Positions 1 to 15,660 of a stretch of 64,000 nucleotides of DNA are shown in pieces. Numbering within the stretch: position 1 is the stretch's first letter; each line of letters starts with the position of its first letter. The stretch comes from Methanospirillum hungatei (GTDB lineage Archaea > Halobacteriota > Methanomicrobia > Methanomicrobiales > Methanospirillaceae): contig NZ_CP077107.1 in the NCBI RefSeq assembly GCF_019263745.1, positions 2,542,001 through 2,606,000 of the forward strand, read 5' to 3'. The translations under genes and the position numbers were made by a program. The notes under the pieces are model-generated. The model had not been told where the DNA came from. It made no database searches and saw only the letters and a list, made by a program, of their open reading frames with translations.

Positions 1-1
1 T

Positions 2-178
2 AGTCCAAGATGGATTCTGGGCCTTATGCTTCTGGCGCAGTCATTCCATCCTGAAAAATGTACCTGGAATATGGATGAGGTTGCTGACCAGTTTTACCAG
101 CGATTCTATCATATTTCCTATCGATCGGTTCAACCAACCCGGTCATTTATCAAGGCAACAGCAAAAATTTCAGGATAA
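2..178 (+). CDS. C-terminal end of an ABC transporter substrate-binding protein (partial)
   Basis: This is the last 58 codons of a gene whose start lies outside the window; it is open from base 2 to the TAA at 176-178. The fragment reads SPRWILGLMLLAQSFHPEK and continues with a helix ending QFYQRFYHIS. The same pattern of Trp, a small aliphatic helix, a His/Tyr-Pro-Glu step and a final Phe-Tyr helix closes the protein at 785-1831, which is a FepB/BtuF-type (iron-siderophore or cobalamin) binding protein. It is therefore probably a neighbouring paralogue. The match is short, so the family call rests only on this C-terminal signature. Confidence 0.6.
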   Translation, partial: SPRWILGLMLLAQSFHPEKCTWNMDEVADQFYQRFYHISYRSVQPTRSFIKATAKISG

Positions 179-258
179 TTTTTACCTCCCTTTTTTTCTC
201 ACAGACGTATTTCAAGAGTATATTCTTTGCCCCACAAACCAACCTTCTCTGATCAATT

Positions 259-675
259 GTGAATATTATCAAGGTTCTTCGAAGGCAGGAGTTGAATGAC
301 GGGTACCTGAGTGTGGATTATCTGCTATCAGGTCATGTGACACTCGAAGGACTGGATATCCTCTCTCAGAGGGCATATACCATAACCGGACACCAATACC
401 TCTCTCCATGCTATCAGATTCAAAAACCTGAAAACATTCAGATCACCGGTATTTTACAGAGCAGTGTAATCCAGGTCACATTCCCGGCATACTCCGCAGG
501 ATATATTGAGGAGTATCTGTCAGCTCTTGTCAACCTAATTCCTGAAGAGCAACATGCGAACTCTTTTGTCCAAACCCTGTTCGATGATATAAAAATGATT
601 CTCCGGTCAAAGTTACAACGGAAAAATTCAAAAAATTTAAACGTTGATACGCTCTCGCATATTTTTGTAGAGTGA
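259..675 (+). CDS. Hypothetical protein, 138 aa, between two binding-protein genes
   Basis: I do not recognise this protein. The frame opens with GTG at 259; no ribosome binding site is visible, and a TATA-like stretch (gagtatattc, about 217-226) lies roughly 37 bases upstream, so the start is uncertain. The product is soluble and mixed alpha/beta, with no Cys cluster, signal peptide or membrane segment; the C-terminal 40 residues are basic and helical. It sits in the same direction between two substrate-binding protein genes and upstream of the radical SAM gene, which suggests a shared metal-uptake role by position only. A TTACCTAA/TTAGGTAA inverted repeat follows it (676-724). Confidence 0.5.
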   Translation: MNIIKVLRRQELNDGYLSVDYLLSGHVTLEGLDILSQRAYTITGHQYLSPCYQIQKPENIQITGILQSSVIQVTFPAYSAGYIEEYLSALVNLIPEEQHANSFVQTLFDDIKMILRSKLQRKNSKNLNVDTLSHIFVE

Positions 676-724
676 TTACCTAAGTTAATTAAAAAAGATC
701 AATATCTGCATGTCATTTAGGTAA
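676..724. promoter_or_regulatory. Inverted repeat ahead of the substrate-binding protein gene
   Basis: TTACCTAA at 676-683 is the exact reverse complement of TTAGGTAA at 717-724, with 33 bases between them. It starts directly after the stop codon of the 138-aa gene and ends about 60 bases before the start of the binding protein at 785. It could be an operator for a metal-responsive repressor or an RNA hairpin ending the upstream transcript; there is no clean T-tract, so an operator is slightly favoured. Confidence 0.3.
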
Positions 725-784
725 ATTATTATTGCATAGTTAACATACAGCATTAAGATCATACGATCATCTTTGGAGTGTATT

Positions 785-1831
785 ATGCAGTTATCCTTAA
801 CTCATCTATTCTGCATTCTTGTAGCAGGTTTTTTATTGATTCCTGTCTGCACAATTGCTGATGGTACAGTCTCAATTACTGATATTTCAGGAAATCAGGT
901 AGAAATTCCTGCAGATGTAACCAGAGTTGTAACGGTAGATCCATTTTCCAGCCAGTTTATCTATGTTATCGGAGCGGATGACAGACTGGTTGGAACCTGT
1001 ATCGGACCAGCGAACAGAGATCTGGTGAATAAGACTCAGCCAACACTTGGATCCCTTCCCTCTCCCGGATGTAAGACAAATGTTAATCTCGAGGAATTGA
1101 TGAAACTGAAACCTGAGCTTGTTATTTCCTCCATTGATTATACGTCAATCAATAATGATATTGAGAGAGTTTCCATCCCACTGGTACAAATCGATCTTGA
1201 AGAGGCTGAAAATCTGGTAAAAAGTTATGAAATAGTCGGAAAAATTTTTGGAAAGGAGAAAGAAGCCCAGGAGTTTATTGATTATTACAACCAGAAGATG
1301 AATTCCGTACAGGAGACCGGAGAGAGTATTTCTGAAGATCAAAGAAAGAGTATTTACTTTGGTCAACGATCCCCACTCCAGACACTTGGCGACGATTATT
1401 ATGAAGCTGAAATTGCCCGGATTATCGGAGCATCAAACGCAGCAAAGGGCCTTTCTGGTGGAGATAATACGGTTACCATGGAGCAGGTATACGAATGGAA
1501 CCCAAGTTCTGTCGTCCTTCTTCCCTATTGCCCGGCTAGTGTAGAAGATATTCTGGCTGACCCTGCCTGGCAGTCTCTTTCAGCGGTCAAGGAGAAGCAG
1601 GTTTTCAGGATGCCGAAGTACCTCATGAGCTGGGAACTTCCGGTACCTGAGTCAATTCTCGGAACTCTCTGGCTCCAGAGTGTCATATATCCGGAATCGG
1701 TTTCCTTTGATATCAAAGATGAAATTAAGAGCTTTTATAAAAAGTTCTATCGGATTGACCTGACTGATAAAGATGTTGAGAACATTTTTTCAGACACCAC
1801 GAAGGTCACTCTGAATAAACCGAAACAATAA
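785..1831 (+). CDS. ABC transporter substrate-binding protein, FepB/BtuF type
   Basis: This 348-aa exported protein should capture a metal chelate (siderophore, cobalamin or similar) outside the membrane and pass it to a FecCD-type permease. Residues 1-25 form a signal peptide with a long hydrophobic core ending near CTIADG. The N-lobe has the family opening TDISGNQVEIP followed by the RVV strand; the C-lobe carries the QVFRMP strand and the closing helix WLQSVIYPE. I chose ATG 785, not TTG 773, because GGAGTG (775-780) is well placed before it. No permease gene lies beside it; the only matching permease and ATPase in the window are at 16914-18847. The substrate cannot be told from sequence; iron chelates, corrinoids and, by analogy with MolBC, molybdate or tungstate are possible. 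Confidence 0.85.
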   Translation: MQLSLTHLFCILVAGFLLIPVCTIADGTVSITDISGNQVEIPADVTRVVTVDPFSSQFIYVIGADDRLVGTCIGPANRDLVNKTQPTLGSLPSPGCKTNVNLEELMKLKPELVISSIDYTSINNDIERVSIPLVQIDLEEAENLVKSYEIVGKIFGKEKEAQEFIDYYNQKMNSVQETGESISEDQRKSIYFGQRSPLQTLGDDYYEAEIARIIGASNAAKGLSGGDNTVTMEQVYEWNPSSVVLLPYCPASVEDILADPAWQSLSAVKEKQVFRMPKYLMSWELPVPESILGTLWLQSVIYPESVSFDIKDEIKSFYKKFYRIDLTDKDVENIFSDTTKVTLNKPKQ

Positions 1832-1850
1832 CTTTTTTTTGGTGACCAGA

Positions 1851-3548
1851 ATGGAATGCGAAATGTGTGGTCACCGGTGTAGTATTCAGGAAGGAGGATA
1901 TGGAAGATGCAGGATGTATACCTGCATCAATGGGGAGATTTTAGAACGTTTCCCTAATCGGTACCTGGCTCTCTGGCCGAGTGCAATTGAAACCATTCCT
2001 TTTCTCCATTATACTCCTGGTGGACGTTATCTCCTCCTCTCTACTATCGGTTGTAATCTCTCATGTGAAGGGTGCGTCTCGTATGTTCTGGCAAAGAACC
2101 AGGATTTGCTAACTGATGCTCTTATTCATGCCGAATCATCAGACATTCTTCGCATGGCAAAAGATAACGACTGTATCGGGGCGGTCTTTTGTCTGAATGA
2201 GCCAACAGTCTCACTCGGGACGGTTACCCGTGTTGCCCGGGAGCTGCATACGGCCGGATTATCCATGGGGTGTGCCTCGAATGGATGTATGTCGGAAAAA
2301 GCGCTGGATATTCTTTTAGACCATATGGATTTTATCACCATCGGACTGAAAGGACTGTCAGAACATGGATACCAGGATAACGGGGCGCCTTGTAATGTTG
2401 AACATGTCTTTCAAACCCTGAAGACGATTCATTCCAGAAACATACATCTTGAGGTTGCTGCAGTATGCAAAACATCAGACATGGAAGAGATTGTTTCTAT
2501 TGCGCAGCGGATACAGGAGATATCTGCTGATATTCCTCTCCATGTCATGCGGTTTATTCCCTTTCATGGAGCAGATACTGCGCTTGAACCCTCTGCTACC
2601 GTGGCTGAGGATCTGATCTCAGCCTGCAGGAAATATCTGCCATGGGTATACCTTTTTAACACGCCCTCAACCCGTTATTTGAATTCATACTGTCCGGAAT
2701 GTAATGAATTACTTGTTGAACGATCATTTAATGGACCGATGGGAGCCCGGTTTTCAGGTCACTATACGCCAGTATGCCCTTCCTGTCATTATTCCATCCC
2801 AGTCAGAGGAACATGGTATTCCCAACACTATCCTGAACCCCGATTCAGAGGTGGATACAGGACACCGGTAGCACTTGACATGGTGTATAGTATTCTAAAA
2901 GCGGTGGGAATCTCTGATGATACAACGATAGGATTAATATTAACAAAATTGTTGTCCAACGATTATCTGGAGCAGTTACAGAACCGGTTACAGACTCCGA
3001 AAGGATATATCGAATTTTTACAGGTATTACAACAATGGTCAGGAACTTCATCATTTCATCCGGTTATCAGATTCCTCTCAGAAAGAGTTCAGATAATTGA
3101 GAAAAATTCCGATATGCCAAATAAACCTCGGGTTCTCTCAGTCCTTTCGCATCCGCTCCTCCCCTCATATCCGGATAAAATGGAAAATACACTCATTTCT
3201 TTGGCAGGAGGAGAGGTATTAAATTATAATCTGGGATATGATGAACAATCATCCGAACGATTCACCCGGGATGCATTTCAAAAATTACAACCGGATATCC
3301 TTGTTGTTTCTGGTCCAGGTCATCTGACACACCAGAATTTTGTTGATTTATGTATAAGAGAAAACCTTACCGCTCCTGCTCTAGAGGAAAATAATATTTT
3401 CATAGTATCTGGAGCACATATGAGAACCGGCCCATCATGGATTCTGACCTTAGAATCATTAGCGAATTATCTTCATCCGGATATTTTTGATTTTGACCTG
3501 AAGTATGAAAAAGAGGCTCTTCTTAAAACATTACCCGGACTAGAGTGA
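1851..3548 (+). CDS. Radical SAM enzyme fused to a substrate-binding-protein-like domain
   Basis: This 565-aa protein begins with a Cys-rich segment (C3, C6, C10, C20) and a radical SAM core with the CX3CX2C motif CNLSCEGC at residues 68-75, which binds the [4Fe-4S] cluster that cleaves SAM. The layout resembles the PflA-like enzymes of the AmmeMemoRadiSam group. After about residue 280 come two CxxC pairs (CPEC, CPSC), likely a zinc ribbon, then a helical segment, and from about residue 420 a region that resembles the C-lobe of FepB/BtuF proteins: SGPGHLT, then NNIFIVSGAHMRTGPSWIL, then LHPDIF. No signal peptide is present, so this domain would be cytoplasmic. ATG 1851 is preferred over TTG 1839 because GGTGA lies 5 bases before it. 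It starts 19 bases after the binding-protein gene and probably shares its transcript. Substrate unknown. Confidence 0.75.
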   Translation: MECEMCGHRCSIQEGGYGRCRMYTCINGEILERFPNRYLALWPSAIETIPFLHYTPGGRYLLLSTIGCNLSCEGCVSYVLAKNQDLLTDALIHAESSDILRMAKDNDCIGAVFCLNEPTVSLGTVTRVARELHTAGLSMGCASNGCMSEKALDILLDHMDFITIGLKGLSEHGYQDNGAPCNVEHVFQTLKTIHSRNIHLEVAAVCKTSDMEEIVSIAQRIQEISADIPLHVMRFIPFHGADTALEPSATVAEDLISACRKYLPWVYLFNTPSTRYLNSYCPECNELLVERSFNGPMGARFSGHYTPVCPSCHYSIPVRGTWYSQHYPEPRFRGGYRTPVALDMVYSILKAVGISDDTTIGLILTKLLSNDYLEQLQNRLQTPKGYIEFLQVLQQWSGTSSFHPVIRFLSERVQIIEKNSDMPNKPRVLSVLSHPLLPSYPDKMENTLISLAGGEVLNYNLGYDEQSSERFTRDAFQKLQPDILVVSGPGHLTHQNFVDLCIRENLTAPALEENNIFIVSGAHMRTGPSWILTLESLANYLHPDIFDFDLKYEKEALLKTLPGLE

Positions 3549-3563
3549 ACAGGGATATCTAAT

Positions 3564-3585
3564 AGGACAAAACAAAGTCCTTTTT
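3564..3585 (+). terminator. Possible transcription terminator after the radical SAM gene
   Basis: AGGAC (3564-3568) and GTCCT (3577-3581) form a short stem with an A-rich loop of 8 bases, followed by a run of five T. It lies 16 bases after the radical SAM stop codon. The stem is only 5 bp, so the T-run carries most of the weight, as is usual for archaeal termination. Confidence 0.4.
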
Positions 3586-3608
3586 AATTGATGTCTCTGG
3601 CAGGTGAA

Positions 3609-3651
3609 GGTTTTGGAATAAAAACCGTTGAAATCAGGTAATCCCAAAACC
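3609..3651. repeat. Inverted repeat GGTTTTGG / CCAAAACC
   Basis: An exact 8-bp inverted repeat (3609-3616 with 3644-3651) lies in the gap between the convergent radical SAM gene and the 87-aa gene. It may be a second terminator hairpin read from either strand. Confidence 0.3.
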
Positions 3652-3709
3652 AAAGGATTTGCATATATGAATCGAAGATGAATGACCACTAAATCACGGT
3701 GAATCTGTA

Positions 3710-3973
3710 TCAGGATGCAGTTTTTTCCCGATTTTCCTGTTCCTTTATTATTCCCGTAATTTGTACTTTTATTTTTTGTTTCAAAGGTACATCTGGTTTT
3801 TTTGCTCCATTCCAGGAATACCCCATAACCTCACAAGTTACGCGGTTTCCCCCGATTATTCTTTCTATTTTCGTAGCTTCTCCTTTATTCTGATTGATCT
3901 GAAATTCTTTTACAACTGCATTCCATTCAGATGGATACAGTGCAATTTCATATAATTCATTAACTTTAACCAT
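3710..3973 (-). CDS. Small hypothetical protein, 87 aa
   Basis: I do not recognise this protein. It is likely to be real: on the minus strand GAGGT is spaced 6 bases before the ATG at 3973 and the upstream 60 bases are AT-rich. The product is small and basic, with a central beta-rich core (IERIIGGNRVTCEVMGYSWNG) and a charged C-terminus; no membrane segment or Cys cluster is seen. It is convergent with the radical SAM gene and is followed on its upstream side by about 450 bases without a gene. Confidence 0.5.
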   Translation of the reverse strand: MVKVNELYEIALYPSEWNAVVKEFQINQNKGEATKIERIIGGNRVTCEVMGYSWNGAKKPDVPLKQKIKVQITGIIKEQENREKTAS

Positions 3974-4424
3974 AAGTTAACCTCTTGAATTGCAATACAA
4001 GATATGTCATCACCTTATATATCTGTTCCCATCTGTGAATTGCTCAATGTAAAAAACATGGTCAATGGGTATATGGTACAAAAAAATATGAGTTCAGACA
4101 GAATGACGATTTCACCTTTAAAAGAAGATGGTGGTTAGGATGGTAACCAAGTTTGACTGTAGTAGAGTATTTCCGGTACTCAGAAACGGCATGATCGGAT
4201 TGTATTTAAGTACCGGTAAGGAGTGCTCTTGGAGTTGTCTATGGTTTATTCTTCAATGTGCTGGAAGTACTAACCACCATAAATTAATTTGAACTAAAAG
4301 TTAATAAATTTATTTAATTACGCTGCCATGAACAATTTTGTAAACTATATTTGATCACTTAGAGAGGTTGTTTGTATTGTATTTGATAAAATACGGTATT
4401 GATGAGATTAACCTGTTTCCTGTA
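3974..4424. other. Intergenic region with a 153-bp element bounded by an 11-bp inverted repeat
   Basis: No convincing gene is present in these 451 bases. ATGGTGGTTAG at 4128-4138 and CTAACCACCAT at 4270-4280 are exact inverted repeats bounding 153 bp, the build of a MITE-like remnant or a large hairpin. A 50-codon open frame (ATG 4140 to TGA 4290) lies inside it but has no ribosome binding site and no recognisable content. No flanking target duplication was found. Confidence 0.3.
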
Positions 4425-5291
4425 TCAACATTTATTTTTCTCTACAGACCAGATCATCATCCCTTTGAATATTTCCGAATGGGTACGGTATAATCCATCA
4501 ATAGAAGCATTTTTGTAGTATTCTCTGATCTTTTCTTTAATCTCCAAAGTAAGTTCCTGACGAAGCGAGATAAAATCAATTGCCTTTTCACATGCTTCTT
4601 CCCAATTCTGGTTGCGATCCTCTGATTTATGAGTTACCTTCACAATCGGGTGAAATCCCTGAGTGTATACATACATAAACGGGTACATAAATCCAGATGC
4701 AAAGATGTTATCCTGGGGAATCGTTTCCAAAATTCGCGTATAAATTTCACAAGGAATTTTTGCAGGATCTTTTCTGATGAAATTGCTATAATAACAGAAT
4801 CTCTTGGAACAAGCAATCATCCGATCAAAGGTATCAACATCTTTGATACCTGGAGTAAATGATGCAATTACCAGATCAAATGAGTTCCGAAATCCTAACG
4901 CATCAATATCTGCAGTCCACCAGGAACATTCAACCGGAGTAATCGAAAGATGCTCACGATCTGCGATCTCTTTCATTCTGTCAAGCATACCTGAGGCAAT
5001 ATCCAGCGAAGTGACATGTGCTCCAGCCTGTGCCAGGGGAATGGATAACGTTCCCGGACCACACCCGATATCGAGAATTCGTGCACCTGCTGGGTTGAAT
5101 CCCGCTTCCTCTAAAAGATTAAAAAAATCTTCATTCTTTTTCCTTTGTCTCTCTTCTTCCACATCTTTACCAAAATGTTCCGCACGTTTATTCCAACTGG
5201 CAGCCTGTTGTTCATCAGATGTATAATAATCTTCATCGATTGAAGATTTCCAGCAATTAATCCAGTTATGTACCGTTTCATTCAGAACCAT
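4425..5291 (-). CDS. Class I SAM-dependent methyltransferase
   Basis: This 288-aa Rossmann-fold methyltransferase carries the SAM-binding motif LDIGCGPGTL about 85 residues in and the acidic strand-2 end SLDIASGM. It is a paralogue of the protein at 15806-16657: both share the N-terminal WK helix, the motif I and post-I sequences, and a long C-terminal helical substrate cap. I start it at the Met at 5291, which follows GGGGA by 5 bases and aligns with the paralogue's start; an ATG at 5315 lies about 28 bases after a TATA box (TTTATACT) and could be a leaderless start instead. The substrate is unknown; both paralogues lie among metal-uptake and cofactor genes, so a small-molecule ligand is possible. 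Confidence 0.75.
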   Translation of the reverse strand: MVLNETVHNWINCWKSSIDEDYYTSDEQQAASWNKRAEHFGKDVEEERQRKKNEDFFNLLEEAGFNPAGARILDIGCGPGTLSIPLAQAGAHVTSLDIASGMLDRMKEIADREHLSITPVECSWWTADIDALGFRNSFDLVIASFTPGIKDVDTFDRMIACSKRFCYYSNFIRKDPAKIPCEIYTRILETIPQDNIFASGFMYPFMYVYTQGFHPIVKVTHKSEDRNQNWEEACEKAIDFISLRQELTLEIKEKIREYYKNASIDGLYRTHSEIFKGMMIWSVEKNKC

Positions 5292-5566
5292 GAGTTCCCC
5301 GTGATGAGAATGCATTAGTACTAGAAGGTTGCCTGTATTGTAGTATAAATGAATTGATTGTTTCCTGACATTGTCAATTATTTTTTATTGATGAGAGATG
5401 TCGATGGATAATTCAAGGAACATCCTGGAAATATCATTAACCACTTTTTCTAACGAGTGATGTGATACTGTTATGTACTTTTTGTTAATTAGAGGATCCA
5501 TTAAACAATTTTATGTGTATGTATCGCCAACACTGATAATCATAAATCAATTATTCTGGAGGTAAC

Positions 5567-5776
5567 ATGAGAATCAGTGCTCGTAATTCAATCAAAGGAA
5601 CCATTAAGTCCATAACGAAAGGTCCGGTAAATTCAGAAGTTGTTCTTGATATTGGAAATGGTGTTCTTCTTACATCAGTTATTACAACTCATGCTGTCGA
5701 GAACCTAGGGCTAAAAGAAGGAAATACTGCATGGGCATTGATCAAGTCTTCTGAAGTAATGATCGCCGTTGATTAA
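5567..5776 (+). CDS. Molbindin, single Mop/TOBE domain
   Basis: This 69-aa protein is one Mop domain, the small beta-barrel that binds molybdate or tungstate oxyanions as oligomers in the cytoplasm. The family opening MRISARNSIKGTI and the following VVLDIGNG and LGLKEGNTAWALIKSSEVMI segments are all present. It starts with ATG after a strong CTGGAGGTAAC site, and a TATA-like ATTTTATG lies about 55 bases upstream. It probably buffers oxyanion for the cofactor pathway that serves the formate dehydrogenases of this window. The length is that of a complete single-domain molbindin. Confidence 0.85.
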   Translation: MRISARNSIKGTIKSITKGPVNSEVVLDIGNGVLLTSVITTHAVENLGLKEGNTAWALIKSSEVMIAVD

Positions 5777-5879
5777 CGAACAAAGGAAACCCGAAAAGGT
5801 CGAAAGGGTATTAAACCGATATTTGAGGAAGATTTGCCTTTCTAATTGTAACCCGTTTTATGTACATTTTTCAGATATT

Positions 5880-6431
5880 ATGAGTGACTTTGAGACATTA
5901 CTCGAAAAAGCTAAAGCATTTCATGGTGATGTTTGTCCGGGGATCGTCATGGGGACCCGGATGACGATTGCCGGTATGCGTGAACTGAGTATGAACCCCA
6001 TGGAAAAAAACCATGACCTTATTGTTTATGTTGAGATTGACCGGTGTGCAACCGATGCAATTCAGGCAATAACTGGTGTAACACTGGGACACCGAACGCT
6101 GAAACACCGGGATTATGGTAAGTTTGCTGCAACCTTTGTAGATAGTAAATCAGGAAAAGCAGTACGAGTCGCAGCCATTCCTAAAAAGGGAGAACAAGAA
6201 CAGGACTTTCGCGCGATTGCTCAGAAATTAGCTACCGTTCCAGAATCTGACCTATTTACCATCCAGAAAGTAAGGGTGAATATTCCAGATGAAGACATGC
6301 CAGGACTGCCTACCCACAAGGAATTTTGTTCAACGTGCGGAGAGCAGATCCTGGATAGCAGGGAAGTAAACACCAATGGTTTGATCCAATGTAAAGATTG
6401 TGCATTCGGGTCGTATTACTCTGTTACTTAA
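5880..6431 (+). CDS. FmdE family protein (formylmethanofuran dehydrogenase subunit E-like)
   Basis: This 183-aa protein has the FmdE domain: FHGDVCPGIVMGTRM near residue 20 supplies the metal-binding His and Cys, and a C-terminal zinc ribbon carries CSTC and CKDC pairs. FmdE is found with the Mo/W formylmethanofuran dehydrogenase, which makes the first C1 intermediate of methanogenesis, but many FmdE copies lie apart from it and their exact job is unclear. The frame is open upstream to 5769, yet ATG 5880 matches the family start; TTTTATGTAC at about 5856 is 25 bases upstream, so the transcript is probably leaderless. It follows the molbindin gene. Confidence 0.8.
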   Translation: MSDFETLLEKAKAFHGDVCPGIVMGTRMTIAGMRELSMNPMEKNHDLIVYVEIDRCATDAIQAITGVTLGHRTLKHRDYGKFAATFVDSKSGKAVRVAAIPKKGEQEQDFRAIAQKLATVPESDLFTIQKVRVNIPDEDMPGLPTHKEFCSTCGEQILDSREVNTNGLIQCKDCAFGSYYSVT

Positions 6432-6472
6432 TAATTTTCCCTTTTGAATCAGGCAGAAAGGAGTAAAAAATC

Positions 6473-6828
6473 ATAGACCAGACAACAGAAAAACAAATGG
6501 CCATCCTTTCCGATGCGGTTGATATCCTGAAAACGAGGATACCAGTACCTTTTTCAGAGATACCACTAGATTCAGTTGTCGTGGGAGTATTTTTTACCAG
6601 CGTAAAACTCATATCCGGATATGAAGGGATTTGTTTTACCCCTGTTGCTCTCATTCCTGATGCTGTCTGTTGTTCAACTGCTACAAGTACAATGCCAAAT
6701 TGTGGAAAGATACAAGGGGTTATGGTTGAGGATATGCTGACCCACTTGTCAATTCTCCGACACCCCTGGTCAGGGCTCTCATCGTCAGTGTGGTGAATGC
6801 CCTGTCTGTATTAAAATCCCATGGATAA
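6473..6828 (+). pseudogene. Decayed DUF4213/DUF364 gene
   Basis: The frame from 6497 resembles the N-terminal DUF4213 domain of DUF364 (putative heavy-metal chelation) proteins: a strand reading VVVGVFFTSVKLISGYEGICF, then IPDAVCC and GVMVEDML. After about codon 88 the match continues one frame over, as PLVRALIVSVVNALSVLKSHG ending at 6828, which is the family's conserved ALNAL-type helix; the original frame ends at 6796. The C-terminal DUF364 domain (about 150 residues) is missing. AAAGGAGT at 6457-6464 is correctly spaced not for ATG 6497 but for an ATA codon at 6473, as if ATG had become ATA. Three independent lesions point to a dying copy; the intact relative is at 13482-14309. Confidence 0.65.
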
Positions 6829-6831
6829 TCA

Positions 6832-7620
6832 ATGAACGAGTCAAGGCAGGGTCAGAAATACGAGCCACTTATTATTTACCCACAGTATTATGATCGGATC
6901 TGCCAGGCAGAAAAATATGCCTCGTCTCTTCTCCCCTTTATTCCCCGAGGGTTACCGGTTTTTCAATCACATGGCATCTGTCACTCTGAAGCCCTTATTC
7001 GGTTTATTCATCAAATGCTTAGAACTTTGCCGATATCTTTAGGCAATGAGGAGATTTTTCTTTTATTCCTGGGAGCATGGTTCCATGATATAGGATACAT
7101 CCATCCCATTTCTATACATGACAGGAGCAGACATGCCGAACTCTCTTCTGTAATAATCCGGACTGATCCATTTCTATCAGAACTACTTACAGAAAATGAA
7201 CGCAGTGATCTGGCATTTCTGGTTGAGTGTCATGACAGCAGGATAGATCTTATGACGAAGAGGAGTACATCTCTCCTTCGATTGCATCTTGTCACAGCAC
7301 TCTTCCGTCTTATAGATGCTCTTGATCTTGGCACTGATCGGTGTCCATCTGAGGTTTTTTCATTGATAGAGGATGGGCTTGATGAACACAGCAGACGACA
7401 CTGGAAAGCCCACCAGAATGTTCAATCATGTTTTTTCAAGTATCCATCCCTGATCATACGGGTGTACGATCCTGAAGATCCATTTTTCAGGTTGCGGATA
7501 GTCCCTCACCTGGAAGATGATTGCACATCCTGCAGTCCGATATTCGGAAAAAGCGGATTAGAACCATGTTACCTGGCAATAGAAACCAGTGATGGGAAAA
7601 TGCCAGATATTTCTCCATGA
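6832..7620 (+). CDS. HD-domain phosphohydrolase
   Basis: This 262-aa protein has the HD superfamily pattern: His near residues 47-51 (SHGICHSEAL), the paired HD at residues 85-86 (WFHDIGY), a conserved His in ECHDSR and an Asp in DALDLG. These residues bind two metals, and the family hydrolyses phosphate esters of nucleotides or cyclic nucleotides. The C-terminal 60 residues hold four Cys (CTSCSPIFGKSGLEPC), unusual for the family. It begins 4 bases after the decayed DUF4213 gene. Its 3' end overlaps the convergent hydrolase gene by 52 bases. The substrate is unknown. Confidence 0.7.
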   Translation: MNESRQGQKYEPLIIYPQYYDRICQAEKYASSLLPFIPRGLPVFQSHGICHSEALIRFIHQMLRTLPISLGNEEIFLLFLGAWFHDIGYIHPISIHDRSRHAELSSVIIRTDPFLSELLTENERSDLAFLVECHDSRIDLMTKRSTSLLRLHLVTALFRLIDALDLGTDRCPSEVFSLIEDGLDEHSRRHWKAHQNVQSCFFKYPSLIIRVYDPEDPFFRLRIVPHLEDDCTSCSPIFGKSGLEPCYLAIETSDGKMPDISP

Positions 7621-8387
7621 AGAAGAGAAAAAAAGGTATCGCTAGCTCCAGCCTCTTCCCATGGGCAATGACCACAATTTGGAATAATGATACTCGTAAA
7701 CCTGGAAAGATTCCGGGATAGTGGTTCAATGATTCCCTGAACCGGATGAGGATCATAATCACCATGAATCGCCGTTACTGGACAGGATATCTGCTGAAAG
7801 CAAGATAGAAGTTCTCCTGTTTGTCGCATTTTTGCTGCTTCAGCCCATACTCGTGAAAATATTTCAGGATCACTGGAGAAAGTATCGTTTTCTTCTTTAT
7901 TTTTCTGAATTGGACAAAATGTATCTGCTTTATGCATCAATCTTCCGAATGTTTCCAATATCTGATCCTTGCCAGGACAGATAGGATTCTGAATCTGTAC
8001 TATGAGATCATGCACTTTTTCACGTTCATCCGGAGTGAGCCGTTGCATCCTGTTCTCCCATACCGTGGCATATCGTTCCTCTAATGGGCCTGCAGAGATG
8101 AGAATGAGATGGTATACAAGTTCGGGATATCTGCCTGCAACCATCCCTGAAAGCCAAGCACCCCAAGAATATCCAACCAGGATAACTGGAAATTCTGCAG
8201 ATGAACGAAGGATCTCTGCCAGTTCTTCGACCTGATCTTGGACTGATAGTCCTGTCTGAAATGGCTCGATAATTGAAAAATAATCTGACAGATATCGTGC
8301 AACCGGACCCATTTCTCCAGGTGCACCTGGACCCCCGTGTATAAGAGCAATTCTCTTTGGATCTGAACCATACGATCGAAATTTCAT
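7569..8387 (-). CDS. Alpha/beta hydrolase
   Basis: This 272-aa protein has the catalytic triad of the alpha/beta hydrolase fold: Ser74 in GYSWG, Asp212 in GDYDPH and His240 in NCGHCPW. HGGPG near residues 17-21 forms the oxyanion hole and is typical of the proline-iminopeptidase/epoxide-hydrolase branch. There is no signal peptide, so it acts in the cytoplasm. The last 52 bases are antisense to the end of the HD-domain gene, so the two convergent messages can pair. The downstream gene on the same strand would be none; the modABC operon lies upstream. The substrate cannot be inferred. Confidence 0.75.
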   Translation of the reverse strand: MKFRSYGSDPKRIALIHGGPGAPGEMGPVARYLSDYFSIIEPFQTGLSVQDQVEELAEILRSSAEFPVILVGYSWGAWLSGMVAGRYPELVYHLILISAGPLEERYATVWENRMQRLTPDEREKVHDLIVQIQNPICPGKDQILETFGRLMHKADTFCPIQKNKEENDTFSSDPEIFSRVWAEAAKMRQTGELLSCFQQISCPVTAIHGDYDPHPVQGIIEPLSRNLSRFTSIIIPNCGHCPWEEAGASDTFFSLLHGEISGIFPSLVSIAR

Positions 8388-8434
8388 TCTTTTTTCCTAT
8401 AATATGAAATAATCATGAGTGGGTACAGAACCAC

Positions 8435-9178
8435 CTAGTCAATGGCTATCGCTGAAAAACTTATGTATTCGTCAGAGATGTACTCAACGTGCGATACCCC
8501 AGTATGGGCCTGAAGTTCATTTGGTCGTCCGGTCCAGATTACTTTTCCTTCTGCAAGGATGATAACCTGATCACCCATGATTTTGGCATCTTTAAGTGAA
8601 TGAGTCACAATTATGGAGGGTTTATTACTTTTAACCAGGTCTTCCCTGAGTTCCTGCCGGATTTTTTCTCTCGCCTGCCGATCCAGCGCAGTCAGTGGTT
8701 CGTCAAGGAGCAGAAGATCAGGCTGAATAACCATTGCACGTGCCAGAGCTACCCGCTGCCGCTGTCCGCCGGAAAGGTTGGTAACACGTTCATTGGTAAG
8801 ATGACCAATACCAAGGTCTTTTAATATCTGATTCACGGATTTTTTAATCTCCCCTGATCCGATTTTTCGTCTCCGTAATCCGAATGCTACATTCTCGAAA
8901 GCTGACATGTGTGGAAACAGGGCGTAATTTTGAAATACATATCCGATATTCCGATCTTCCGGGGGATGTGCTTCAAAGTCACTACCAGAATACAATATCC
9001 TCTTATTTAGCGAGATGGATCCATCATCAGGAATCAGAAGTCCTGCTAGGAGGTTTAATATAGTGGATTTTCCGGATCCATTCTCCCCGAGCAGAACAAG
9101 TACTTCACCAGGTCTCACATTGAAAGAAACATCAAGGTCAAAATCCCGTAGTTTCTTTTTCATATGAACTTCAAGCAT
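8435..9178 (-). CDS. modC: Molybdate ABC transporter ATP-binding protein
   Basis: This 247-aa ATPase powers molybdate (or tungstate) import. It has Walker A GENGSGKS at 31-38, Q-loop VFQNYALFP at 81-89, signature LSGGQ at 135-139 and Walker B LLLLDE at 155-160 followed by the D-loop TALD. It lacks the C-terminal Mop domain of many bacterial ModC proteins; that role may fall to the separate molbindin at 5567. Its ATG overlaps the modB stop codon (TAATG), so the two are translationally coupled. It is the last gene of a modA-modB-modC operon read on the minus strand. Confidence 0.85.
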   Translation of the reverse strand: MLEVHMKKKLRDFDLDVSFNVRPGEVLVLLGENGSGKSTILNLLAGLLIPDDGSISLNKRILYSGSDFEAHPPEDRNIGYVFQNYALFPHMSAFENVAFGLRRRKIGSGEIKKSVNQILKDLGIGHLTNERVTNLSGGQRQRVALARAMVIQPDLLLLDEPLTALDRQAREKIRQELREDLVKSNKPSIIVTHSLKDAKIMGDQVIILAEGKVIWTGRPNELQAHTGVSHVEYISDEYISFSAIAID

Positions 9179-9993
9179 TAAGCTGACCTCCCTGAGAGGA
9201 AGCGGATAATAATCAGAATGACAAAAGATATCGCAATCAGAACGATTGAGAGAGCAATCGATGCGGTCAGATCGCTTTGCATAAATCCATAAATCGCAAG
9301 TGGCATTGTCTGTGTTTTGCCAGGTAAATTTCCTGCAACCATGATAGTTGCCCCGAATTCGCCGATTGCCCGTGCAAAACTGAGGATAATCCCTGAAATT
9401 AATCCGGTTCGGGCAAGAGGCGCTGTCACTTTCAAGAAGGTCATAAAGGGACTTGCACCAAGGGTTCGAGCTGCTGACTCATATACTGGATCCACCATGG
9501 CAAAGGCACTTTTTGCCTGCCTGATATAAAGAGGACCTGCAACAAAAATCTGGGCAATAATGACTGCAAGTGCTGTAAATATAATGGTTATACCCATGTC
9601 ATTAAGCGAGCTTCCAATTAGGCCACGTCTTCCGAATAAAACCAGAAGAGCAAGACCTGCTACTGAAGGAGGGAGAACTATCGGGACATCTATCAGAGTT
9701 TCTACAAATTTTCTGCCAGGATAATCAACTCGTGCATTCATGAAAGCCAAAGGGGTTCCAAGCAAAACAATAACTGCAGTAGCGGTGGTGGCCGTAATAA
9801 GTGATAAAAAAATGGCACTTTGGACATTTGAATCAAAAATTGCAACAAAAAACTCGTGAGGAGTTATCCTCAGAAAGAGTGAAAGAAGTGGCAATGTATA
9901 GAAAAGGATGGTAATAAAGACTATCAGGCCAAAAAGGAGGAGAATTAATATTTTCCCCCCCTTTCGGAGAGAAGAGATAGAGCCTGATTTCAT
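9178..9993 (-). CDS. modB: Molybdate ABC transporter permease
   Basis: This 271-aa inner-membrane protein forms the oxyanion channel as a dimer. A first membrane segment lies at residues 15-40, five more hydrophobic segments follow, and the coupling motif RTLGASPFMTFLKVTAPLA near residue 180 contacts ModC; RAIGEFGATIMVAGN is the ModB-type sequence near residue 205. It starts 12 bases after modA and ends in a one-base overlap with modC. Molybdate versus tungstate preference cannot be read from the permease. Confidence 0.88.
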   Translation of the reverse strand: MKSGSISSLRKGGKILILLLFGLIVFITILFYTLPLLSLFLRITPHEFFVAIFDSNVQSAIFLSLITATTATAVIVLLGTPLAFMNARVDYPGRKFVETLIDVPIVLPPSVAGLALLVLFGRRGLIGSSLNDMGITIIFTALAVIIAQIFVAGPLYIRQAKSAFAMVDPVYESAARTLGASPFMTFLKVTAPLARTGLISGIILSFARAIGEFGATIMVAGNLPGKTQTMPLAIYGFMQSDLTASIALSIVLIAISFVILIIIRFLSGRSA

Positions 9994-10005
9994 ACCCCTA
10001 CACTA

Positions 10006-10812
10006 TTATGCGGGAAGGAAGTTGTAGTTTTTCAGGACAGTCTTTCCTTCGTCTGAGCTAAGGAGATCAATATATTCCTTTGCAAGTTCCTTTTCAGTTG
10101 ATTCTGTGAGAATTCCAGCTTCATACGTTGCTACCACATTGAATTCTTGTGGTATGTCAATAATGGTAATCTTATCTGCAAAGTCTTTGGTAACATCAGA
10201 ATAATAGGTGATCCCTACATCTACTTCTCCAAGAGCTACCTTTGCAGTTGCAGTCGCAACATTTGTTTCTTCTGAAACAACGTTTGCTCTGAATGCATCA
10301 ACAAAAGCCTTTCCATACTCAGTACTGTTTAATGTTTTGTTGAGTACTTGTTCGGTATACTTTCGTACCGGGACTTCTGCAGTTTCGCTGACGATCTTGA
10401 CACCTGGTTTTGCAAGATCTGCAAAGCCAGTAATTCCAGCTGGATTGTCAACCGGGACAATGATTGCAAGTTTGTTGGTTGCATATTTCGTAACGCTGTC
10501 TTTGTCAGCCAGTTCTTCCTTGATCAGGTTGTCCATGTTCTTCGTACTTGCCGGTAGAAAGAGATCTGCATATGCTCCTTCCTTGATCTGAGTTTCAAGG
10601 GTAGCAGAACTGTCTAAATTAGTAGTTACGTTAACACCTGGATGTCCAGCTTCAAAGATCGGATCAAGATCCCCCACTACGCCGGTTAAGGATGCAGCGG
10701 CAAAGACGATCAGTTCTTTATCATCAGTTTCAGCAGCAGATACTGCACCAAACAGAACGAAGAGCAGCAAAAATGCCAGCCCGAATGATACATACGAGTG
10801 AGTAGTTTTCAT
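10006..10812 (-). CDS. modA: Molybdate ABC transporter substrate-binding protein
   Basis: This 268-aa exported protein binds molybdate or tungstate for ModBC. After a signal peptide (residues 1-27, ending near VSAAE) comes the ModA hallmark VFAAASLTGV, whose Ser and Thr contact the oxyanion, then a second ligand segment DSSATLETQIKEGAYADLF. The frame is open to 10875, but ATG 10812 has GGAGTG spaced 5 bases before it and gives a normal signal peptide. The AT-rich block upstream (about 10840-10920) holds the operon promoter. It heads modABC, which would feed the Mo/W formate dehydrogenases of the window. Confidence 0.88.
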   Translation of the reverse strand: MKTTHSYVSFGLAFLLLFVLFGAVSAAETDDKELIVFAAASLTGVVGDLDPIFEAGHPGVNVTTNLDSSATLETQIKEGAYADLFLPASTKNMDNLIKEELADKDSVTKYATNKLAIIVPVDNPAGITGFADLAKPGVKIVSETAEVPVRKYTEQVLNKTLNSTEYGKAFVDAFRANVVSEETNVATATAKVALGEVDVGITYYSDVTKDFADKITIIDIPQEFNVVATYEAGILTESTEKELAKEYIDLLSSDEGKTVLKNYNFLPA

Positions 10813-11051
10813 GAATACACTCCAAACAAATATGGTTCTATTTTCTATTAAATAAATTATTTTATTTATTCGCAAATAATTTAATTCTATTCATTTACTA
10901 AATATATTTATTCTTTCTCCGTTGAATTGAAAAATATATCAAAAACTGAAATAAAAATTAAAGTTGAAAAAAAGGGTTAGATCAATCCACTGCAACCATT
11001 ACACAGGCAATAGTATTCAAAATAAATGATTTTCGTCAATCAATCGGGATC

Positions 11052-11768
11052 TTACTGACCACTTTTTTGTAACCGGACAATACAGATGACTGGCTTTTCC
11101 AAATCATCATCAGATTCTTCATAAAATCCATTAACAATGTATCCAGCCTGAAAACACAGATTAAAAATATCCTGGAGCGAACGGTGATAATAGTAATTTT
11201 TTACCGGTTGTCCGACTATTGCTTCACCTTCATGAGAACACGATGTGAGATATTGTGGTTCCGGTCGGATAAAACAGGGATGAAGCATCGAAAAAACAAA
11301 TATCCCATCCGGTTTCAACAAATGATATACACTCTTCAATAACGGCCGGATATCTGATATATCCATGAAAGCCATGTTTGCAACGGCTTTATCAAAAAAT
11401 CGGTTTTGTTTTAGGAGCAGGAGCTGGGTTTCATCTGTTGCATCACATACCTGAAATGAAATTTTATCCCGGAATGAATCATGGCGTTTCATTGCATGGG
11501 AAATAAGTTTTTCAGAAAAATCAAACGCAATAACCTTTGCACCTAGTTCTGCAAGACGCTGCGAAAAGTTACCATTACCACATGCAATATCCAGGATAAA
11601 ATCACCTTTCGTAGGCATGAGGAGTTCTTCGGTTTTGGGCCTAACTATTTTACGATGAAAAAGATTCGAATGATCTCCCATCCTGGAATCCCAGAAATCT
11701 GCAATAGCTTCCCAACGGATTTTGCTCTCCAGGGTTGTTTCAGGATAATTACCGTTTCCATGAACCAT
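11052..11768 (-). CDS. Class I SAM-dependent methyltransferase
   Basis: This 238-aa methyltransferase carries the SAM motif ILDIACGNGNFS about residue 60 and the acidic AFDFSEK loop after strand 2. The closing segment, with MLHPCF near residue 160 and a Tyr-rich stretch, resembles ubiquinone/small-molecule methyltransferases. It is not closely similar to the paralogue pair at 4425 and 15806. It stands alone between modA and the divergent NTPase gene. The substrate is unknown. Confidence 0.7.
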   Translation of the reverse strand: MVHGNGNYPETTLESKIRWEAIADFWDSRMGDHSNLFHRKIVRPKTEELLMPTKGDFILDIACGNGNFSQRLAELGAKVIAFDFSEKLISHAMKRHDSFRDKISFQVCDATDETQLLLLKQNRFFDKAVANMAFMDISDIRPLLKSVYHLLKPDGIFVFSMLHPCFIRPEPQYLTSCSHEGEAIVGQPVKNYYYHRSLQDIFNLCFQAGYIVNGFYEESDDDLEKPVICIVRLQKSGQ

Positions 11769-12077: not shown

Positions 12078-12662
12078 ATGGTCAATTCAATGTCTAACTG
12101 GAAACCACCACGATTCATCATCACCGGTGAACAAGGGGAGGGAAAGACAACACTTCTTCTGAAAATCCTTCCAGAACTCACAAATCAGGGAATCAGAATG
12201 CAGGGTATCGCTGCTCCGGGATATTTCAGCGATGGTATCAGATCAGGTTTTGATATTCTGAATGTACATTCCGGGAGAACTGTAGAACTCTGCTCTGCAA
12301 TTCCAACGGCTAATTCCACACAATATGGCAGGTATTACTTTCGATCAGAAGGCCTTACCTTTGGGAAGGAGATATTAAGCCAGGTACCCCTCCCCGGTCA
12401 GGTGGATCTCCTTGTCATCGATGAGGTAGGAAGGTTTGAGATTGCGGGGAAGGTATGGGGAGAGAGTATTGATCATATCATGCAAACACCCCGCCCACCG
12501 ATGATCTGGACGGTCAGGAGATCCTTTGTTGATGCGGTTACGAAGCGATGGCCGGTCCAGAGACAAAGAATCATTGATGTCGGCTCTGAAAATTACGATG
12601 ATTTTATTGATGATATGATGAATGAGATCCGGCTTTATCGGTCTGAAACATTTCACCGATGA
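12078..12662 (+). CDS. THEP1-type nucleoside triphosphatase
   Basis: This 194-aa P-loop protein has Walker A GEQGEGKTT at about residues 17-25 and the Walker B/catalytic segment VIDEVGRFE near residue 112, matching the THEP1 family of archaeal NTPases, which hydrolyse ATP and GTP in vitro. The GFDILNVHSGRTVEL segment is also typical. It is convergent with xdhC and overlaps it by about 10 bases at the 3' end. The placement among molybdenum cofactor genes makes a role in nucleotide handling during cofactor maturation possible, but this is inference from neighbours; the family has other contexts. Confidence 0.75.
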   Translation: MVNSMSNWKPPRFIITGEQGEGKTTLLLKILPELTNQGIRMQGIAAPGYFSDGIRSGFDILNVHSGRTVELCSAIPTANSTQYGRYYFRSEGLTFGKEILSQVPLPGQVDLLVIDEVGRFEIAGKVWGESIDHIMQTPRPPMIWTVRRSFVDAVTKRWPVQRQRIIDVGSENYDDFIDDMMNEIRLYRSETFHR

Positions 12663-13492
12663 GGTATACTTTTGTCTGCTGACCAGTCTACACGCATATG
12701 TTCAGGAATCCCTCCTCTCATAACAAGGATTACCTCGGAAATAACTGATAAGGCAATCTCCTGAGGGAGATTTTTTCCGATGCGAAGACCGATGGGGCAG
12801 TAGACTCGATCATCGATGACTCCACCTCGGCCTTGTATGTTACGAATCAATACTTCAGCCTTTTTTACACTTCCGATCATTCCAATATACGGTATTTTTT
12901 TGATTTTGAGGAGTTGTTCCAGGACGATTTCATCATGTTCATGGCCATAGGTCATAATAACACAATAACTTGTCCCTGAAAGATGAATATGTGAGGATAT
13001 ATCCGTAAAAGATTGACATATGAGAGATCTTGCTCCAGGAAACCGTTCAGGATCTGCAAACTCTCTCCGGTCATCATATACCCGGTATGGAACATTCAGG
13101 ACTTCACATAATTTCCCAAGGGCAAGCCCGACATGACCACCACCAAAAATTACCAGTTCTGATTCCGGAATAAGAGGCTCTATAAAAACGGTGAGAGAAC
13201 CTCCACAAACTCCGAGTTCAGCATCTTCATCTGATGCGTTCCATTCATCCCCATCTCCTTTCGAGACAAATTTACGGGTAATACAGGTCCCCGTTTTCAT
13301 TGCCTCTCTGGCAAGGTGAATACATTGTAACTCTACTCCTCCACCGCCTACCGATCCTGCTGTTTCACCGTTCTGGTTGATGACCATATGTGATCCGGTT
13401 TTCCGGGGAGTAGATCCTGCAGAATCAATTATTGTTACCAGGGCACATGGAATTCCCTTGTTGTACCATGTTGTTATGTTATTAAGCCACAT
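12653..13492 (-). CDS. XdhC/CoxI family molybdoenzyme maturation protein
   Basis: This 279-aa protein has the N-terminal XdhC_CoxI domain (IIDSAGSTPRKTGSHMV, then GSVGGGGVE, then GVCGGSL with its conserved Cys) and a C-terminal Rossmann domain (VIFGGGHVG; MTYGHEHDE; YIGMIGS). XdhC proteins hold the pterin cofactor while its terminal sulfido ligand is added and deliver it to the enzyme. No xanthine or CO dehydrogenase gene is visible here, so it may serve another Mo/W enzyme. ATG 13492 follows GGTGA and is preferred over TTG 13504. It overlaps the end of the DUF364 gene by 11 bases, so the two form an operon. Confidence 0.8.
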   Translation of the reverse strand: MWLNNITTWYNKGIPCALVTIIDSAGSTPRKTGSHMVINQNGETAGSVGGGGVELQCIHLAREAMKTGTCITRKFVSKGDGDEWNASDEDAELGVCGGSLTVFIEPLIPESELVIFGGGHVGLALGKLCEVLNVPYRVYDDRREFADPERFPGARSLICQSFTDISSHIHLSGTSYCVIMTYGHEHDEIVLEQLLKIKKIPYIGMIGSVKKAEVLIRNIQGRGGVIDDRVYCPIGLRIGKNLPQEIALSVISEVILVMRGGIPEHMRVDWSADKSIPHR

Positions 13493-14309
13493 CCGATTCA
13501 CCAATTTCTTTGTTTACCGCGCCTAGGGAGAGTAGTTTCTTTTTAAATGCAGAAATGTCCTTTACCATGTTGATTCGTTCAAGAGCACTAAGAGGGGAAT
13601 GTGAGATACTTCCTCCCCCAAGTTCTGCATAACGAGCCATGAGCTCCATGTTCTGAACAAGAGTTACTCCAATAAGGTCCAGGCCACATTCAAAGAGTGT
13701 AGGACTTGGAGGGACGGTTGGTCCCATCATGACCCTGATTTTCGCATCTGGTGTCCGGCGAATCACTGCCTGGAGGGTCTCATTCACAATAGTCAGACCA
13801 CTCATCAGAACGATCTGTGCCCTGCTGAGCACTTCATCTGCATCATTCCAATGGATATCACCTGGACGGGGAAAAAGTTCGACAATATGAACCGGCCAGC
13901 CCATTTCCCGCCATTCTGCCCCCTCCTTGAAATATCCTACAAAGCAGGTGGGAACATGTGCTGCGGCATTCTTCACCATATCGATGGCATTCCCATGAAT
14001 TATGGTTTGAGGTTCCGGAAGAAGCGACTTTAAACATGCCATTCCTACTGCACGCCGGAGTGTCTCGGTACTGGAGAGAAGCTCTATTGATGATTCTAAT
14101 CCGGGTTTGTGAAGCCAGTCTCCCATCCACGAGTCCATGCCTGCAGGATCAGTCAGGCCCGGCATTCCACGGAAGATTGTGGAAAGTGACCATTTCCCGG
14201 TTTTAACCAGTACCCAGTTTGTATAGATACGGAGATCTTCGATTACCTGGTCCGGAGCTGCTGCCTTGGCAATCTCTCGGATGAGCATTTCATAATGAGG
14301 AATTTCCAT
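13482..14309 (-). CDS. DUF364 protein (putative heavy-metal chelation)
   Basis: This 275-aa protein shows the C-terminal DUF364 domain: VGYFKEGAEWREMGWPVHIVEL, DADEVLSRAQIVLMSGLTIVNET and VMMGPTVPPSPTLFECGLDLIGV are the characteristic segments. The N-terminal 100 residues take the place of DUF4213. The family folds as two Rossmann-like parts around a cleft and is often found near metal-chelate ABC transporters, which gave rise to its name; no activity has been proven. It is co-transcribed with xdhC (11-base overlap), an unusual pairing that ties it to molybdenum cofactor delivery. A decayed relative is at 6473-6828. Confidence 0.75.
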   Translation of the reverse strand: MEIPHYEMLIREIAKAAAPDQVIEDLRIYTNWVLVKTGKWSLSTIFRGMPGLTDPAGMDSWMGDWLHKPGLESSIELLSSTETLRRAVGMACLKSLLPEPQTIIHGNAIDMVKNAAAHVPTCFVGYFKEGAEWREMGWPVHIVELFPRPGDIHWNDADEVLSRAQIVLMSGLTIVNETLQAVIRRTPDAKIRVMMGPTVPPSPTLFECGLDLIGVTLVQNMELMARYAELGGGSISHSPLSALERINMVKDISAFKKKLLSLGAVNKEIGESDVA

Positions 14310-14640
14310 TTTAATATTGCTTAGTTTTACTTTGTTGTAAATTAATTTGATTAATTAGATCGCCTCCAGGCTCTGAAAGAATTATGTCCTTATTCGAAAA
14401 ATAGGTGCATAAAAATTCATTCAAGGAACATCGGGCATATATTCAGGGATTCGGTTTTTCACATTATTCTTATCAGAAAGAAAATATCCGGGGTTTACTA
14501 TTTTAAGTTAATTTTTATAATATCATAAATAATTTACATTATTGGCGTCCTTTATTTAAGCGTATATGTACTCATGAAACAAAGGATTTTCACATATTGT
14601 TGATTTCATGGGAGATATGTTCGCGTGTGGAGAACCCGAA
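14310..14640. promoter_or_regulatory. Divergent promoter region between the DUF364 operon and moeA
   Basis: About 330 bases of AT-rich sequence separate two divergent transcripts. On the minus side the DUF364 gene lacks a ribosome binding site and has TTAATTTAC about 40 bases upstream. On the plus side ATTTAAGCGTATATG (about 14553) is a likely TATA region for moeA. No gene or strong repeat is visible. Confidence 0.35.
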
Positions 14641-15660
14641 ATGGATGTGCTCTCTCTAGCCAATCCAGAAGAACAGGTTCTAAAAAAAATCAGGAATGAT
14701 CCGACAAATGTTCCCCTGTCCGAAGCATTTCAGATAGTCCGGACAATTGCTCATAAGACAGGGTCGGAGACGGTCCTCATTGATGAATCTGAAGGTCGCA
14801 TACTCAGTGAACCGATCCATGCATCGTCAGATCTGCCATGTTTTACTTGTCCAATCGAACCAGGAAAACATATTTCCCGAAATAATGACGATTTCAAGAA
14901 GAATGAACTGATATTTCCTGATGGATGGATGATACGGACCCAGGACATTCCGATTCTGGCATCTTTGGGGAAGATCCGCATAAAGGTCAGGAAAAAACCT
15001 GTCATTGGCATCATCTCAACTGGAAAGGAACTTGTTCCGGCAGAATCAATACCAAAACCCGGGGAGGTCAGAGAGGTAAATTCCCATCTTATTGCAACAT
15101 TTTGCAGACGCCAAGGAGCAATTCCAATGAAATATGGAATTGTACGCGATGATCTTCAGGAACTTGAAAATCTTCTTATGGAAGCATCAGAGGAATGCGA
15201 TGCCATCATTGTAAGCGGTGGAAGTAACCGGGATCAGAATGACATCACCGCTCAAGTCGTCCGCTCCCTGGGTAAGGTTTACACCGAGGGAATCTCTTTT
15301 GCCCCAGATAAACGGACAACAATCGGAAAGATAGGGACGGTCCTGGTAATTGGACTTCCAGGCCATCCCTCGGCCACATTTATGGTGTTAACGCTCGTGG
15401 TCGTTCATCTGTTACGTGCCATGAAAGGAGCACCATGTCAGCGTTTTTATAAAAAAGAAGCACGATTGAGCGATCACCTCTGTTCCAACCCCCAATCTGA
15501 TCGATATATCCGGGTACGTCTGATCGGAGACATGGCCAGTCCTGTGTTTGGAAAGTCAGGCCTTATTCACATGCTATATCATAGTGACGGGATGGTACGA
15601 GTACCAGCTGGTCATCAAGGGTATCGCGAAGGTGAATGGATTGAGGTCATGACCTGGTAA
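14641..15660 (+). CDS. MoeA-like molybdopterin molybdenumtransferase lacking domain II
   Basis: MoeA inserts Mo or W into adenylated molybdopterin. This 339-aa version keeps domain I/III pieces (LSEAFQIV, DESEGRILSEPI), the MPT-binding MoCF domain (IGIISTGKEL, SHLIATFCRRQGA, IIVSGGSNRDQNDIT) and the GLPGHPSATF loop, plus the C-terminal beta domain IV. It passes directly from SSDLPCFTCP to IEPGKHISRNNDD, so the roughly 60-75 residues of domain II, including the usual MDGYAV and TGAPLP motifs, are absent. Standard MoeA is near 400 aa. ATG 14641 follows GTGGAGAA by 6 bases; ATG 14608 is an alternative. The full-length copy at 61498 may do the standard reaction. Confidence 0.75.
   Translation: MDVLSLANPEEQVLKKIRNDPTNVPLSEAFQIVRTIAHKTGSETVLIDESEGRILSEPIHASSDLPCFTCPIEPGKHISRNNDDFKKNELIFPDGWMIRTQDIPILASLGKIRIKVRKKPVIGIISTGKELVPAESIPKPGEVREVNSHLIATFCRRQGAIPMKYGIVRDDLQELENLLMEASEECDAIIVSGGSNRDQNDITAQVVRSLGKVYTEGISFAPDKRTTIGKIGTVLVIGLPGHPSATFMVLTLVVVHLLRAMKGAPCQRFYKKEARLSDHLCSNPQSDRYIRVRLIGDMASPVFGKSGLIHMLYHSDGMVRVPAGHQGYREGEWIEVMTW

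Follow-up and report, generated by a model that had tools for sequence, protein, structure and literature searches.

A cytoplasmic radical SAM enzyme with a captured class III binding-protein lobe in a molybdenum/tungsten gene setting

Why would a radical SAM enzyme carry part of a nutrient-binding protein? The question is raised by a gene near the start of the window, a stretch of 64,000 nucleotides from Methanospirillum hungatei (NZ_CP077107.1, positions 2,542,001 to 2,606,000 of the forward strand). An earlier note had read the product of this gene, P0001, as a radical SAM enzyme joined to the C-lobe of a FepB/BtuF-type binding protein. Our analysis bears out this reading and delimits the gene and its parts as follows.

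1851..3548, + strand: radical SAM / class III binding-protein C-lobe fusion, P0001, 565 aa (open reading frame, profile and fold matches)
1851..2675, + strand: radical SAM domain, residues 1-275 (PF04055, invariant Cys, PflAE fold)
2691..2810, + strand: zinc-ribbon-like Cys motif, residues 281-320, with C281, C284 and C312 invariant (alignment)
2859..3101, + strand: helical region, residues 337-417 (AlphaFold2, profile alignment to 4hn9)
3111..3530, + strand: class III binding-protein C-lobe, residues 421-560 (profile and Foldseek)

The open reading frame extends from an ATG at 1851 to a stop codon that ends at 3548 and comprises 565 residues; a TTG at 1839 is a possible alternative start, and the N-termini of homologues favour the ATG. 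The N-terminal half matches PF04055 (E 7.8e-8) and bears both marks of the radical SAM superfamily, a partial TIM barrel and the SAM-cluster motif CxxxCxxC, which reads CNLSCEGC at residues 68-75 (C68, C72 and C75). A further motif, CxxC-x3-C-x9-C, lies at the N-terminus (C3, C6, C10 and C20), and the cysteines of all three motifs of P0001 are invariant in a 17-member alignment of relatives. In a Foldseek search with the AlphaFold2 model, the nearest solved fold to this half is PflAE (E 1.8e-8), while a single-sequence search with the half alone returned no PDB match. The best family match of P0001 is TIGR04337 (AmmeMemoRadiSam, E 2.8e-35), at 121.8 bits against a curated cut-off of 220, and its two paralogues score 97.6 and 71.1 bits, also below the cut-off; membership of that family is thus rejected. 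A plain AmmeMemo-type enzyme in the same genome (locus L007) has a comparable Cys motif on sequence inspection.

Searched as a single sequence, P0001 gives a weak C-terminal match to peripla_PGF_1 (residues 409-550, E 3.7e-4), and its C-lobe on its own gives no Pfam match. Both paralogues in the same genome exceed the Pfam cut-off for Peripla_BP_2, which is matched by 11 of 16 members of the fusion family. A family profile of residues 322-565 aligns with solved class III binding proteins (4hn9, E 6.8e-17) and more weakly with BtuF (E 0.003). The AlphaFold2 model of the same residues (pLDDT 86, pTM 0.85) also retrieves class III binding proteins in Foldseek, with a best E of 2.6e-6, so that the structure prediction and fold search proposed in the earlier note do find the class III relation. 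Specifically, helices 383-397 and 403-417 are the counterpart of the class III inter-lobe helix region in the model and in the profile alignment to 4hn9. The note had taken the lobe to be the C-terminal 150 residues; its identity as a C-lobe holds, its extent does not, since the homology is larger and begins at about residue 383 with the inter-lobe helix. In the model the N-lobe is absent and helices precede the C-lobe instead, so that P0001 keeps one lobe of the class III pair, together with the inter-lobe helix, and not both lobes. Consistent with the model, the PF01497 match of six fusions, drawn from four genomes, begins no earlier than profile position 73-95, whereas in ordinary binding proteins the match mostly starts at position 1-58.

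The AlphaFold2 model of full-length P0001 has a pTM of 0.86, a value otherwise hard to reach, and the orientation of the lobe is therefore likely determined. The listed Foldseek matches are PflAE-like enzymes or binding proteins, never both, and we found no PDB chain that spans the two halves and hence no solved example of this protein build. Judged by eye, the N-terminus (MECEMCGHRC) shows neither an export signal or lipoprotein anchor nor a hydrophobic segment, in agreement with the claim that a signal peptide is missing. P0001 is best described as a PflAE-like radical SAM enzyme of the cytoplasm that carries a captured class III C-lobe and inter-lobe helix. Within the open-access literature, and with a limited set of terms, searches on the fusion itself, on radical SAM enzymes linked to Mo/W metallophores and on radical SAM genes in Moco-riboswitch operons found no description of it.

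What the lobe might hold is suggested by the neighbouring genes, which on the 5′ side are the following.

1..178, + strand: 3′ end of a second fusion of 585 aa, which begins before the window at G000:C1:2540421 and is coupled to a class I methyltransferase
259..675, + strand: 138-aa open reading frame between the two fusions (family F16, conserved in same-genus relatives)
785..1831, + strand: secreted class III substrate-binding protein P0002 (PF01497, E 1.3e-25; PDB search)

The spacing of 19 bases between the P0002 gene and the fusion, given in the earlier note, is exact. The closest solved relatives of P0002 are 4ovk and MolA (3psa, E 4e-32), MolA, which binds molybdate, being the nearest characterised protein by sequence. 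The 138-aa family (p138) occurs only between or beside fusions, in the host genus. In relatives, the core unit is a compact operon of substrate-binding protein, class I methyltransferase, fusion, FecCD permease and ATPase (gaps of 2, 26, -8 and -10 bases in locus L177), which upholds the proposed link to import. From the sequence similarity of its binding protein, the neighbouring importer would be MolABC-like, with molybdate or tungstate as its putative cargo. The class I methyltransferase is found close to the fusion in 31 of 39 genomes, and of the 26 cases in which the two genes adjoin, 21 have it running into the start of the fusion; it is distantly related to CpaM (E 2e-13, below the cut-off for that protein). 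Several methyltransferase families recur around the fusion (MT1, OMT, MT2w and MT13). In diderms, four loci (L139, L120, L122 and L138) have a TonB receptor gene, verified with Pfam and NCBIfam, at a distance of 10-63 bases from the fusion. Archaeal and Bacillota loci showed none, which accords with the lack of an outer membrane in these cells.

Downstream of P0001, the next 12 kb of the window form a Mo/W island.

5567..5776, + strand: Mop / TOBE molybdenum-pterin (oxyanion) binding protein (TIGR00638, E 6e-23, above cut-off; PF03459)
5769..6431, + strand: FmdE family protein with zinc finger (PF02663, E 1.6e-31)
8435..10875, - strand: ModC-ModB-ModA type molybdate/tungstate transporter (TIGR02141 and TIGR01256, above cut-offs; ABC_tran)
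12653..13504, - strand: XdhC-family maturation factor for aldehyde oxidoreductase-type enzymes (PF13478; NF045664 below cut-off)
13482..14309, - strand: DUF4213-DUF364 'putative heavy-metal chelation' protein (PF04016, E 1.5e-31)
14608..15660, + strand: MoeA-type molybdopterin molybdotransferase (PF00994, PF03454, PF03453)

A 99-aa open reading frame beside the FmdE gene (6497-6796) has its match confined to DUF4213, the N-terminal part of DUF364 proteins, and looks like a truncated copy of such a protein. The setting extends to relatives, around whose fusions DUF364, ModAB, FmdE and MoeA recur. A survey of 19 genomes places 17 of their 31 DUF364 genes, and 10 of their 38 ModB genes, no more than 15 kb from a fusion, where about 0.6 of either kind would be expected; the enrichment P values, here and for the riboswitches below, treat genomes as independent and ignore kinship and the correlation between tandem loci.

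Riboswitches tie the bacterial operons to the same metals. In both Bacillota and Desulfobacterota, Rfam detects the Moco/Tuco riboswitch RF01055 upstream of the operon. Of 20 loci taken from 14 genomes with this riboswitch, each encoding a fusion or its unfused sister enzyme, 13 have a copy in the same orientation no more than 6.5 kb upstream, against 0.19 expected (5 of the 8 loci with a fusion and 8 of the 12 with the unfused sister); the 7 loci lacking it include some on short contigs. In L128, for example, it lies at 11357-11494, directly 5′ of methyltransferase and fusion. Such control indicates that the product feeds the Mo/W cofactor. Among the aligned copies, the P3 stem is absent from the riboswitches of L012, L136 and L132 and present in those of L127, L128 and L130. 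Since Moco/Tuco RNAs that lack P3 have been linked to tungsten (PMC2408646) and both kinds occur, both metals may be served. Further copies accompany the unfused enzyme (L132, 4146-4280 and 4725-4841; L144, 1164-1283 and 16709-16830), the L132 pair being those aligned as lacking P3. Positions 1-16000 of the archaeal window gave no Rfam match up to E 1. Taken with the gene neighbourhoods, the riboswitches make it very probable that the fusion works in Mo/W acquisition; the neighbourhoods point to uptake and processing of Mo or W, a role that is reported for no known protein of this build.

The genome survey suggested in the earlier note reveals an old family in archaea and two bacterial phyla, with recurring importer and Mo/W genes. 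The host genome encodes two further full-length fusions (C1:938334-940067 and C1:2540421-2542157), and others occur across much of the class Methanomicrobia, in another family of the host's phylum (again with the compact operon), in about 7 of 297 Desulfobacterota genomes sampled and in 4 of 300 Bacillota genomes sampled; carriers include Methanoculleus chikugoensis, Desulfospira joergensenii and a Geobacter MAG. In a tree with binding proteins, the fused lobes form a single clade (SH-aLRT 100). The family therefore looks like the outcome of one old fusion event, followed by vertical and probably horizontal spread, with support for the position of the clade too weak to name the donor lineage. 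P0001 is a divergent member. Specifically, it is more diverged than the other copies, does not have the PSWDFGSPRW-like motif seen in the other type and, unlike the methyltransferase-coupled type, has no methyltransferase directly adjoining; its function may differ from that of the coupled type.

The family also shows variants of its architecture. Unfused sister radical SAM enzymes of about 338 aa sit in similar operons, with a 400-aa protein instead of the lobe. This 384-400 aa family, found beside the unfused enzyme and a class III importer (L080:10261-11415; also L124, L125, L133-L135, L141 and L143-L146), often under a Moco/Tuco riboswitch, has no Pfam or NCBIfam match and is probably a functional stand-in for the fused lobe. 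At G027:C1:19692-21420, a fusion is split into two overlapping reading frames at the border of radical SAM domain and linker (query 3-318 and 312-578), by true fission or by sequencing error; an intact copy in convergent orientation lies beside it. In L015, L072 and G050:C14, two fusion genes are adjacent on opposite strands, which suggests that the paired proteins may work together.

How might such a protein serve Mo/W acquisition? We tentatively favour, at slightly less than an even chance, that the fusion processes an imported Mo/W chelate held by the borrowed lobe; the cargo, its binding by the lobe and the release of metal are what we infer. In this scheme, the importer, preceded in diderms by the TonB receptor, would transfer to the cytoplasm a complex of Mo/W with a chelator, or else the ligand of such a complex. 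The lobe would keep the cargo above the radical SAM site, at the position that the absent N-lobe would have taken on closure, and the 5′-deoxyadenosyl radical would modify or cleave the ligand. The translationally coupled methyltransferase would act on the same molecule as the radical domain, and the freed metal could then supply cofactor synthesis as well as Mop and MoeA. The presence on a radical enzyme of a lobe from the importer's own binding-protein superfamily, without its partner lobe, suggests that this domain closes over the chelate. The importer, together with the TonB receptor in diderms, argues for a cargo larger than an oxyanion, which is probably a chelate. In archaea a chelate is not required, since MolA, to which P0002 is closest among characterised binding proteins, takes its name from free molybdate. 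The TonB and riboswitch evidence comes from bacterial relatives, not from the archaeal window. It is possible, if on balance doubtful, that the operons make up a dedicated pathway by which anaerobes use molybdophores or tungstophores, with the lobe-bearing enzyme destroying or remodelling the chelator and freeing Mo or W.

The same genes can also be read in the direction of synthesis. The radical SAM domain, the methyltransferases and DUF364 would then build a Mo/W chelator, with the lobe holding the growing molecule and the importer retrieving the loaded chelate. The recurrence of several methyltransferase families and the tight coupling of the class I methyltransferase to the fusion fit this scheme, as does the proposal that DUF364 makes flavin-, pterin- or siderophore-like chelators (PMC2954201), but the minimal operon (L177-L181) contains no obvious scaffold-building enzyme and no exporter, and we consider synthesis rather unlikely. 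The cargo could instead be free oxyanion: the importer would carry molybdate or tungstate as MolABC does, the lobe would bind the oxyanion or a metal intermediate, and the radical SAM enzyme would be a metal chaperone or act in cofactor maturation. The kinship of P0002 with MolA and the Mop, MoeA and XdhC neighbours agree with such a role, but a small oxyanion has no need of the TonB receptors beside diderm fusions, and the methyltransferase is left unexplained; this is unlikely.

Riboswitch control would equally fit a supply of cofactor, and docking on a DUF364 structure suggested flavin or pterin ligands (PMC2954201), so that the cargo could be a Mo/W-pterin or a pterin precursor remodelled by the radical SAM enzyme. 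However, MoaA, and with it de novo pterin synthesis, is kept in all 14 fusion genomes tested, and we reject salvage as very improbable. That the lobe binds no ligand and is a mere docking or dimerisation surface would suit half a binding protein and the divergence of P0001, but five fusion-specific, near-invariant C-lobe residues (E445, N458, C501, W530 and H542) are strongly conserved over archaea and two bacterial phyla, which makes a mere surface highly improbable. Corrinoid processing, to which the distant relation of BtuF to the lobe and the remote one of the methyltransferase to CpaM would lend themselves, is set aside as extremely improbable, since Mo/W riboswitches and genes are found instead and about 400 kb of bacterial loci hold no cobalamin riboswitch; of the two cargoes offered in the earlier note, metal chelate or corrinoid, the putative chelate is thus retained and the corrinoid given up.

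Methanogens, sulfate reducers and syntrophs need Mo/W enzymes such as formylmethanofuran and formate dehydrogenases, and sulfide is expected to make both metals scarce in the waters where they live. To our knowledge, the acquisition of bound Mo/W is poorly understood, with molybdophores described mainly from nitrogen-fixing bacteria, and we know of no enzyme that releases Mo or W inside the cell. If processing of an imported chelate is correct, the fusion would be an oxygen-free counterpart, for Mo/W, of siderophore esterases and haem oxygenases. The conserved operon, with its Moco/Tuco riboswitch and lobe-bearing radical SAM enzyme, offers a genetic and biochemical entry to bound-Mo/W acquisition.

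Compared with known systems, P0001 has the radical SAM core, the N-terminal Cys motif and the zinc-ribbon-like Cys motif in common with AmmeMemoRadiSam enzymes and PflAE; unlike AmmeMemoRadiSam enzymes, it carries a binding-protein lobe, and no Memo/AMMECR1 neighbours were seen. With the class III binding proteins of PF01497 (MolA, FepB, BtuF, CeuE and YiuA) it shares the fold and sequence of inter-lobe helix and C-lobe; in contrast to them, it has neither N-lobe nor hydrophobic N-terminus and is fused to a [4Fe-4S] enzyme, necessarily cytoplasmic. The fusion operons resemble MolABC (HI1470-1472) in having a type II FecCD-like importer with a class III binding protein, and go beyond it with the methyltransferase, the radical SAM fusion and, in diderms, TonB receptors. 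The anaerobic haem-uptake operons of ChuW/HutW/HmuW (PMC10404700, PMC10035031) follow the same proposed logic, namely import of a metal chelate and then radical SAM opening of its ligand in the cytoplasm; HmuW, encoded in such an operon, opens the ring and thereby releases iron (PMC10404700). HmuW is a class C radical SAM methyltransferase that acts on haem, whereas the fusion is PflAE-like, with a binding lobe, a separate methyltransferase and Mo/W as the metal; P0001 has no HemN-type Pfam or NCBIfam match, and the class C (HemN-like) architecture is therefore rejected for it. Anaerobic haem use offers the nearest working analogy to the proposed action of the fusion.
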